A program made the position numbers and the translations under genes. Positions 1,774 to 31,381 of a DNA stretch of 64,000 nt are shown in pieces. Within the stretch, counting starts at the first letter, position 1. Every line of letters begins with the position of its first letter. The notes beneath the pieces are model-generated. The model had not been told where the DNA came from and searched no databases. It was given only the letters and a program-made list of their open reading frames with translations. The DNA comes from Candidatus Nitrosacidococcus sp. I8 (GTDB taxonomy: Bacteria; Pseudomonadota; Gammaproteobacteria; Nitrosococcales; Nitrosococcaceae), in assembly GCF_945836005.1 (NCBI RefSeq), contig NZ_OX241534.1:1350275-1414274 (forward strand). The letters are read 5' to 3'.

Positions 1774-2715
1774 ATGAATAATAGAGATATAACAAAAATT
1801 CTAGTAATTTTACCAATATTATTTATCACTTGTGCATCAGCACAACAGCCTATAGAAAGAGATGGGGCATGGGATAGCTACCCTTATGAGAAAGATTTTA
1901 AAGATCATAAAGGTTGGCCAGATTGTGCAGTCATGGAAGGTAACTCTGAAAATAAAAAATACTTACCTGGTAAGGAGCAAGTAATAACTTGGACAATTTG
2001 TCGATCAGATACACCGGATTCTGATCATGATGGTGTGCCAGATCATATAGATCAATGTCCTGATACCCCTGAGTGGATGAAAGTAGATAAGAAAGGTTGC
2101 CCATTGGATACTGATGGTGATGGTGTGCCCGATAGTGTAGATCAATGCATCAATACGCCAAAAGGTGCTAGGGTTAATGGTGTAGGTTGTACTGTTAAAG
2201 ATAGCGATGGTGATGGTGTACCTGATAGTGCAGATCAGTGCCCTAATACACCAAAAGGAGTAGCTGTTGATTCAGTAGGGTGCCCATTAGATAGTGATGG
2301 TGATGGTATTGCTGATTACTTAGATCAGTGCCCCAATACCCCAGAGGGGATTACTGTAAATAATCAGGGTTGCCCAGGTCCTGCAGTGCTTAAAGGCGTT
2401 CATTTTGAATTTGACTCAGCACAACTCACTCTAGATGCTCAAGGCATTTTAAATAATGTTGCTCAGTCTCTCCAAAGCCACCCAGAGTTAAATATTTCCA
2501 TTGCAGGACATACAGATAGTACAGGACCAGAAATATATAACAAACAGTTATCTCAGCTGCGCGCCGAATCTGTAATGAATTATTTAGCCTCTCATGGAGT
2601 AGATAAAGCAAAAATGACAGCAATGGGTTATGGCGAAGAGCACCCAATAGCTTCTAATCTTACTCAAGATGGGCGTGCACAAAACCGCCGAGTTGAGCTC
2701 CAAACATCTAATTAG
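1774..2715 (+). CDS. OmpA-family protein with thrombospondin type 3 repeats
   Basis: An envelope protein that probably ties the outer membrane to peptidoglycan. It has an N-terminal signal sequence (cleavage near CASA-Q), a unique segment of about 60 residues, then four Asp-rich calcium-binding thrombospondin-3 repeats of the type DSDGDGVPDSADQCPNTP. A C-terminal OmpA-like peptidoglycan-binding domain follows, with HFEFDSAQL, the AGHTDSTG loop and the closing NRRVEL. The architecture matches OmpA/MotB-type proteins without an N-terminal barrel. Start: the ATG has GGGAG about 7 bases upstream. A strong terminator follows. It stands alone between a divergent and a convergent neighbour, so it is likely monocistronic. 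Confidence 0.9.
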   Translation: MNNRDITKILVILPILFITCASAQQPIERDGAWDSYPYEKDFKDHKGWPDCAVMEGNSENKKYLPGKEQVITWTICRSDTPDSDHDGVPDHIDQCPDTPEWMKVDKKGCPLDTDGDGVPDSVDQCINTPKGARVNGVGCTVKDSDGDGVPDSADQCPNTPKGVAVDSVGCPLDSDGDGIADYLDQCPNTPEGITVNNQGCPGPAVLKGVHFEFDSAQLTLDAQGILNNVAQSLQSHPELNISIAGHTDSTGPEIYNKQLSQLRAESVMNYLASHGVDKAKMTAMGYGEEHPIASNLTQDGRAQNRRVELQTSN

Positions 2716-29365: not shown

Positions 29366-30427
29366 ATGGCAAGTTTTTTTAAGCGTTGGCAAAAATCTTC
29401 AGAAGAAAAATCTAATTCATTAGAATCAAAAAACTCTAGTGCTGATACCCTTTTTGAAGGGGATCCAAAAAATATTCAAGAAGAAGCAAAAAAATCTTTC
29501 TTTGGGCGCTTGTACGAAGGTCTTAGTCGTACTAGGAGTAATCTTACTCAAGGTATTGAAAATCTCATTCATAGTAAAAAATCGATTGATCATGCTACTT
29601 TAGAAGAAATAGAAACCTTATTACTTACTGCAGATGTAGGGATAGAGGCTACACAAGAAATTATCGCCGATCTTACCCGTCGCCTTTCTCGTAAAGAGAT
29701 CATGGATTCAAAATTACTCATGGAAGCGTTACGAGAAAATATGGAATCATTACTAGCACCCAATAATCAACCTTTTACTATTCCTAACCTTGAAGGGATA
29801 AATAAACCCTTTACCATGCTTATGGTAGGTATTAATGGAGTGGGTAAAACTACTACGATTGGTAAGTTAGCAAAAAAATTCCAAGAGGAAAGCCACTCAG
29901 TTATGCTCGCTGCAGGAGATACTTTTAGAGCAGCAGCAGTAGAACAGTTACAAGTATGGGGTGAGCGTAATCAAATTCCTGTTATTGCTCAGCATAAAGG
30001 AGCAGATTCAGCGTCCGTGATATTTGATGCGATACAATCGGCTAAGGCACGAAATATAGATATCTTGCTAGCAGATACTGCAGGTAGACTTCATACCCAA
30101 GCTAATTTAATGGAGGAATTAAAAAAAGTTAAGCGAGTCATGGGTAAGGCTGATGAAAATATGCCCCATGAAGTATTGCTTACTATAGATGCAGGTACTG
30201 GTCAAAATGCACTTAATCAAGTATTACAATTTCACCAAGCAGTCGGATTAACAGGAATTATAGTGACTAAATTAGATGGCACTGCAAAGGGGGGCATTAT
30301 TTTTGCGATCGCTAAAAAAACAGGCCTTCCTATTTACTTTATTGGGGTCGGAGAAAAAATAGATGATCTTCGCCCTTTTAACAAAAAAGAATTTGTTACT
30401 GCACTTCTTGGATTATCTCCCTCTTAA
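29366..30427 (+). CDS. ftsY: Signal recognition particle receptor FtsY
   Basis: SRP receptor GTPase that docks ribosome-nascent-chain complexes at the Sec translocon. An acidic, charged A-domain of about 50 residues precedes the NG domain. G1 is GINGVGKTTTIGKLA, DTAGR and TKLDGTAKGG are the later GTP motifs, and the C-terminal PIYFIGVGEKIDDLRPF is diagnostic. Length is 353 residues. rpoH follows 93 bases later, but the usual ftsE and ftsX genes of the gammaproteobacterial ftsY-ftsE-ftsX-rpoH order are missing. Confidence 0.95.
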   Translation: MASFFKRWQKSSEEKSNSLESKNSSADTLFEGDPKNIQEEAKKSFFGRLYEGLSRTRSNLTQGIENLIHSKKSIDHATLEEIETLLLTADVGIEATQEIIADLTRRLSRKEIMDSKLLMEALRENMESLLAPNNQPFTIPNLEGINKPFTMLMVGINGVGKTTTIGKLAKKFQEESHSVMLAAGDTFRAAAVEQLQVWGERNQIPVIAQHKGADSASVIFDAIQSAKARNIDILLADTAGRLHTQANLMEELKKVKRVMGKADENMPHEVLLTIDAGTGQNALNQVLQFHQAVGLTGIIVTKLDGTAKGGIIFAIAKKTGLPIYFIGVGEKIDDLRPFNKKEFVTALLGLSPS

Positions 30428-30448
30428 AATAAGGAACTTATCGATTAT

Positions 30449-30475
30449 TTAGCACTCTTAGCATTAGAGTGCTAA
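30449..30475. promoter_or_regulatory. CIRCE operator (HrcA binding site) upstream of rpoH
   Basis: The sequence is TTAGCACTC-N9-GAGTGCTAA, an exact match to the CIRCE consensus including the spacer length. It ends 45 bases before the rpoH start codon. A possible promoter lies just downstream: ATGGCA (30478-30483), a 16-base spacer and TATAGT (30500-30505). Bound HrcA would sit against this promoter. hrcA itself is not in the window. Confidence 0.9.
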
Positions 30476-30520
30476 AAATGGCAATAATTATTTACATAGT
30501 ATAGTAATAGTAGGAGAATT

Positions 30521-31381
30521 ATGGATATAACATTACCTTATAATCACTCAATACCTTCAATTATCGGTAATAATACCCTCGATTCTTACTATCGGGAGAT
30601 AGGTAGTATTCCAGTACTGAGTGCTGATCAAGAATATCATCTTGCTAGTCGCCTAAAAGATGATAATGATCTTGAAGCAGCAAGACAGTTGATTCTCTCT
30701 AATTTACGCTTTGTTGCCTACATTGCTCGTGGATATATCGGCTATGGACTACCACTTACTGATCTTATCCAAGAGGGAAATATTGGTCTTATGAAGGCAG
30801 TGAAACGCTTTGATCCAGAGCAGAAAGTGCGTTTAGTTTCTTTTGCGGTACACTGGATTCGTGCTGAAATCCATGAGTTTATTATACGTAACTGGAGAAT
30901 TGTTCGAGTTGCTACGACTAAAGCCCAGCGTAAACTATTTTTTAAACTACGCAGTACTAAAAAACATCTAGGCTGGCTTAATACTCAAGAAAGAAATGAA
31001 ATAGCAGCTGATTTAGCAGTTAGCCCTAAGCAAGTAATGGAAATGGAGGAACGGTTAAGTACTCAAGATAATTCCTATGATATCAAGGATGAGGATAGTG
31101 AAGAGCATACACCCGCTCCAGTAAGCTATCTTACAGATATATCTACAGATCCTGCGTATCAATTAGAGCAGCTAGATTATGGTGAAAACTATAGTAAAAG
31201 ATTGCAGCAAGCACTTACTAACTTAGATGAACGGAGTTTAGATATTGTTAACCATCGTTGGTTAAGAGATTCGAAGAGTACACTTCATGATCTAGCAGCA
31301 AAATATAAAATTTCTGCTGAAAGAGTTCGACAGTTAGAAACAAATGCTATGAAAAAACTACGTGAAACAATAGGTAATTGA
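30521..31381 (+). CDS. rpoH: RNA polymerase sigma-32 factor (heat-shock)
   Basis: Sigma factor for heat-shock genes. Region 2 has NLRFVAYIARGYIGYGLPLTDLIQEGNIGLMKAV in the usual place, and the RpoH box QRKLFFKLRS separates it from other group-3 sigmas. The C-terminal region 4 helix is AAKYKISAERVRQLETNAM. Length is 286 residues. TAGGAGAATT provides the ribosome site. A CIRCE operator lies upstream, so repression by HrcA is likely. Confidence 0.96.
   Translation: MDITLPYNHSIPSIIGNNTLDSYYREIGSIPVLSADQEYHLASRLKDDNDLEAARQLILSNLRFVAYIARGYIGYGLPLTDLIQEGNIGLMKAVKRFDPEQKVRLVSFAVHWIRAEIHEFIIRNWRIVRVATTKAQRKLFFKLRSTKKHLGWLNTQERNEIAADLAVSPKQVMEMEERLSTQDNSYDIKDEDSEEHTPAPVSYLTDISTDPAYQLEQLDYGENYSKRLQQALTNLDERSLDIVNHRWLRDSKSTLHDLAAKYKISAERVRQLETNAMKKLRETIGN

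Follow-up and report, generated by a model that had tools for sequence, protein, structure and literature searches.

A CIRCE element interlocked with a sigma-E-type promoter before rpoH in Candidatus Nitrosacidococcus sp. I8: a predicted HrcA operator that recurs in beta- and gammaproteobacteria

The rpoH gene of Candidatus Nitrosacidococcus sp. I8 is preceded by a perfect CIRCE element, and we think it likely that this inverted repeat serves as a working HrcA operator inside the rpoH promoter, where HrcA activated by GroEL would block a sigma-E promoter. The window, that is, the whole stretch of 64,000 nucleotides analyzed here, belongs to a genome of 1.85 Mb in a single contig. The element reads TTAGCACTCTTAGCATTAGAGTGCTAA, with both arms, TTAGCACTC and GAGTGCTAA, intact and separated by nine nucleotides, and it is the sole match in the 64 kb window at three mismatches or fewer, for which shuffled sequences predict 0.02. 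It begins 21 nt after the ftsY stop codon, and 45 nt separate it from the ATG of rpoH, whose product scores above the equivalog cut-off for sigma-32 (Table 1). An initial annotation had reported an exact CIRCE at this place and this distance from the ATG, and both statements were borne out.

Table 1. Positions in the window of the genes, the operator and the putative promoter elements around the start of rpoH.
Feature	Position	Strand	Basis or remark
ftsY (SRP receptor)	29366..30427	+	NCBIfam TIGR00064, 367 bits (cut-off 261)
Sigma-E-type -35, GGAACTT	30433..30439	+	7/7; at -16..-10 from CIRCE start; register conserved across 149 loci
CIRCE operator TTAGCACTC-TTAGCATTA-GAGTGCTAA (predicted HrcA binding site)	30449..30475	.	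0 mismatches; before rpoH in 6/6 family genomes
Sigma-E-type -10, TCTTA	30456..30460	+	Last two left-arm and first three spacer bases; 16 nt from GGAACTT
TGCTAAAAA, counterpart of the extended -10 TGCTAAAAT (sigma-70 type)	30470..30478	+	CIRCE right arm; imperfect
Shine-Dalgarno of rpoH, AGGAG	30512..30516	+	Direct sequence reading
rpoH, sigma-32, 286 aa	30521..31381	+	TIGR02392 equivalog, 387 bits (cut-off 323)

The genes that such a control would need are found in this genome. The hrcA gene, whose presence the initial annotation presupposed, is there and intact (TIGR00331, 317 bits, cut-off 197), has no internal stop and is conserved along its whole length within the family; the sigma-E gene, rpoE, is present as well (TIGR02939, 293 bits, cut-off 236). 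Perfect CIRCE copies number two genome-wide, one before groESL and one before rpoH, and a third match, with two mismatches, falls within an open reading frame (G000:C1:309143). Of the further copies that the initial annotation proposed to look for before groES and dnaK, the one at groESL is there and the one at dnaK is not, the hrcA-grpE-dnaK region of this genome being devoid of CIRCE. The interval between grpE and dnaK carries CTTGAAA-N12-CCCCAATA, a sigma-32-like promoter that we take to be a near match to the consensus for this factor. Since dnaK lacks CIRCE but has a sigma-32-like promoter, HrcA would reach it via rpoH; judged by CIRCE, the HrcA regulon here would comprise groESL and rpoH, with dnaK following through sigma-32. 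Upstream of rpoE itself (locus L177, about 2064-2140, minus strand) we noticed TGAACTA-N16-TCTC(TGA), which resembles a promoter for sigma-E self-control and would fit a conserved sigma-E recognition sequence.

The anatomy of the promoter became visible when 149 non-redundant CIRCE-rpoH regions were aligned on CIRCE, with 35 groESL CIRCE loci as the control and with the positions of promoter elements left unconstrained by the search pattern. The flanks of the aligned loci are nearly information-free with three exceptions: GGAACTT in a fixed register at -16 to -10 from the CIRCE start; a T and an A at spacer positions 1 and 3, which extend the final two bases of the left arm to TCTAA, TCTTA or TCTCA; and A-A-T after the right arm, yielding TGCTAAAAT. 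GGAACTT-N16-TCTAA resembles a sigma-E promoter, its -10 being drawn from the left arm and spacer of CIRCE, and TGCTAAAAT, built by the right arm, resembles an extended -10 of the sigma-70 type. At -16, five or more of the seven positions of GGAACTT are matched in 75 of the 149 rpoH loci versus none of the 35 groESL loci; within -17 to -14 the count rises to 111 of 149, other offsets giving 0 to 8. With six or more positions required in that same interval, 84/149 loci match; 1000 shuffles averaged 0.74 and never exceeded 5. The spacer between -35 and -10 in these 84 measures 16 nt in 50 loci, 17 in 17, 15 in 10 and 14 in 7. The final A of the sigma-E-type -10 is found in 91 of 104 loci with the -35 versus 15 of 38 without it (p=3e-8); as this spacer base tracks the -35, HrcA preference alone does not account for it. 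This dependence over 142 loci and the shuffles indicate that the sigma-E-type element is, in general, genuine. The T that completes the extended -10 is likewise a feature of rpoH, being present in 140/149 rpoH loci versus 5/35 groESL loci.

In the window, the sigma-E-type sequence (GGAACTT, 15-17 nt, TCnnA) is complete as GGAACTT-N16-TCTTA, 30433-30460. Its exact form, GGAACTT-N16-TCNNA, occurs only twice genome-wide, and a genome scan that tolerated one mismatch did no better than the reversed control, so by itself the motif predicts nothing outside rpoH. Where a TGnTATAAT-like element would be expected, and where the class consensus is TGCTAAAAT, the window has TGCTAAAAA(T), in which the final T is replaced by A and appears one base later. 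No other genome of the family has the exact -35: in two relatives GGAACCT stands one base farther out, three others have nothing convincing, and TGCTAATAT is carried by five of the six genomes. Because GGAACTT is perfect and the extended -10 imperfect here, and the opposite holds in the relatives, the promoter sequence of this genome is best read as sigma-E, and that of its relatives better as sigma-70. A second GGAACTT occurs in two relatives about 6 nt 3' of CIRCE, before the rpoH ATG. We also looked for sigma-70 promoters 3' of CIRCE (30478-30519), where two consensus matches were at the level of chance (shuffle mean 1.1) and one of them overlaps the ribosome-binding site, and for autoregulation of rpoH by sigma-32, for which the best upstream match, 9/15 positions, was not convincing. 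A plausible promoter had been noted beside the operator, which was correct in part: the elements backed by conservation overlap CIRCE, and the downstream matches are at chance.

Comparison of six family genomes from three genera showed CIRCE before groESL and before rpoH in all of them, both copies having a single mismatch in G005, a genome in which the gene 5' of rpoH is not ftsY and CIRCE is nevertheless retained. The arms of the rpoH CIRCE are thus perfect in five genomes and the sequence around them has diverged. Before hrcA, the element is found in two of the six only, and the four genomes whose hrcA operon is without CIRCE retain the one at rpoH; self-control of hrcA was therefore lost or gained within the family, whereas groESL and rpoH keep their operators. 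The conservation before rpoH that the initial annotation had proposed as a check extends far beyond the family. We scanned 370 gammaproteobacterial genomes (in the GTDB sense, betas included) for the combination of CIRCE, a start codon and an RpoH-specific motif; 101 of them matched, and the reversed control never did. HrcA is encoded in 277/370 of these genomes and in 99 of the 101 with the site (Fisher p about 1e-12, a value that ignores relatedness, the genomes coming from many families). As 178 sampled genomes with hrcA did not match the strict pattern, the link is common and not universal. Two genomes, G123 and G282, have CIRCE before rpoH and no hrcA match; in them, hrcA falls in a gap or else the site is left over from its recent loss. 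The three genomes sampled from the other family of this order have neither hrcA nor the site.

A scan of named genomes yielded at least 80 CIRCE-rpoH loci, and among the matches listed are Nitrosomonas europaea, Pseudoalteromonas, Rheinheimera, Methylocaldum, Dyella, Crenothrix, Leucothrix and a Desulfuromonadaceae. The last of these is the one deltaproteobacterial locus sampled, and it has neither a strong GGAACTT nor the extended -10. The sequences keep their register across many lineages and co-occur with hrcA; the CIRCE-rpoH link is widespread and no local oddity. In E. coli, ftsE and ftsX lie between ftsY and rpoH; here the ftsY-ftsE-ftsX-rpoH cluster is reduced to ftsY-rpoH, and a genome-wide search found no ftsX above the family cut-off, only weak matches that are probably permeases of the LolC/MacB type. 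The initial annotation had suggested that the loss of ftsEX may have helped fix the site, and the absence of ftsX is confirmed genome-wide; however, ftsX stands upstream on the same strand at 57/101 CIRCE-rpoH loci, so that the loss is not needed for CIRCE and the proposed fixing role is unsupported.

HrcA might act on a sigma-70 promoter only, either the extended -10 of the right arm or a promoter further upstream, with the sigma-E-like element of this genome unused. The extended -10 is indeed the most constant extra feature of the aligned loci, it is present in five of the six family genomes as TGCTAATAT, and lineages without GGAACTT (Pseudoalteromonas, Rheinheimera, N. europaea and some methanotrophs) keep CIRCE and, mostly, this element. 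Nonetheless, we judge this explanation unlikely, as the genome under study combines an imperfect extended -10 with a perfect GGAACTT and the dependence between -35 and -10 speaks for a sigma-E-type element in general.

Two further explanations do without a repressor altogether, and both appear to us far less probable. The repeat could form an RNA hairpin of 11 pairs in a longer rpoH transcript and act on stability, attenuation or as a thermosensor, and it is known that CIRCE in the 5' leader affects mRNA stability in Bacillus subtilis. Such a role is very improbable here: the region folds only weakly better than shuffles (z -1.58), the spacer varies freely in the family while the arms are fixed to the CIRCE consensus, the site follows hrcA, and transcription beginning within CIRCE would leave the hairpin out of the RNA. 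The related idea of a known RNA thermosensor or other known RNA family was dropped, Rfam giving no match at 30300-30900. An inert relic, for which one could invoke the relatives that lack CIRCE at the hrcA operon, is the least credible of all in view of the arms preserved amid diverged surroundings and of the strong class-wide association of the site with hrcA.

Returning to an HrcA operator inside a sigma-E-type promoter, we infer HrcA binding, repression and promoter use at rpoH from the arrangement of the elements. The sigma-E holoenzyme would recognize GGAACTT-N16-TCTTA and begin transcription near 30466, in the CIRCE spacer. An HrcA dimer bound to CIRCE would, given the overlap, cover the -10, the start point and the weaker extended -10 of sigma-70 type and so repress rpoH. 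In the HrcA family, GroEL is needed to keep HrcA active; unfolded protein would titrate GroEL, HrcA would leave, and groESL and rpoH would be released jointly, after which sigma-32 would raise dnaK from its sigma-32-like promoter, which is without CIRCE. Full activation of rpoH by envelope stress, via sigma-E, would require HrcA to be off. The central idea of the initial annotation, that HrcA links GroEL to rpoH, is sustained by hrcA, the groESL CIRCE and conservation, but not its details concerning dnaK, ftsEX and the place of the promoter. A wider proposal is that in much of the beta- and gammaproteobacteria the rpoH region is a fused HrcA operator and sigma-E promoter, in which CIRCE would supply two -10 elements, that of sigma-E and the extended one of sigma-70, and HrcA would gate the sigma-E input to sigma-32, an AND-gate of three regulons within about 50 bp, and that the control of E. 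coli rpoH would have derived from it after the loss of HrcA; we consider the chances of this proposal to be even.

A close relative of the operator is that of groESL, likewise a perfect CIRCE and served by the same repressor in the same genome; it differs in that its CIRCE follows a sigma-70-like promoter, TTGACT-N17-TATTAT, and groESL CIRCEs lack GGAACTT in register and, as a rule, the T completing TGCTAAAAT. For the promoter, the counterpart is in the textbook organism, E. coli, where sigma-32 is controlled mainly by translation and proteolysis and rpoH has a sigma-E promoter, P3. We found TGAACTT-N16-TCTGA at -120 from E. coli rpoH and no CIRCE, and PF01628 (HrcA) had no match in E. coli. 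The two promoters are alike in having GAACTT-N16-TCTNA before rpoH; E. coli, however, has neither hrcA nor CIRCE, while in our genome the operator includes the -10. Control of rpoH by sigma-E is also known in Pseudomonas aeruginosa (PMC9866376). As for CIRCE upstream of rpoH, it was predicted in Geobacter sulfurreducens (Rodionov et al., 2004, Table 8; PMC545781), with a perfect TTAGCACTC-N9-GAGTGCTAA at -51 from rpoH and another CIRCE at groESL. That organism differs from ours in being a deltaproteobacterium whose hrcA-grpE-dnaK-dnaJ also carries CIRCE (PMC545781). On the strength of the 2004 Geobacter prediction, HrcA control of rpoH is not new (PMC545781); the portion of that account considered here describes no overlap with a sigma-E promoter. 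The literature that we searched held no account of CIRCE overlapping an rpoH sigma-E promoter, a search outside of which lay RegPrecise, Ueki and Lovley (2007; G. sulfurreducens RpoH) and Permina and Gelfand (2003; HrcA regulons of beta-, gamma- and epsilonproteobacteria), and either paper may list more HrcA-rpoH cases. What we did not find described, and what appears to be the new part, is the anatomy, a sigma-E-type promoter interlocked with CIRCE at rpoH.

If this picture is true, a large share of the beta- and gammaproteobacteria would also regulate rpoH through a repressor that senses GroEL and sits exactly on a sigma-E promoter, and three classical protein-stress circuits would be joined at one promoter. 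It would explain how HrcA could influence dnaK where dnaK has no CIRCE, and it would offer a simple, testable model in culturable species, among them Nitrosomonas europaea, which has HrcA and no clear sigma-E element, and Dyella or Aromatoleum, which have HrcA together with one.
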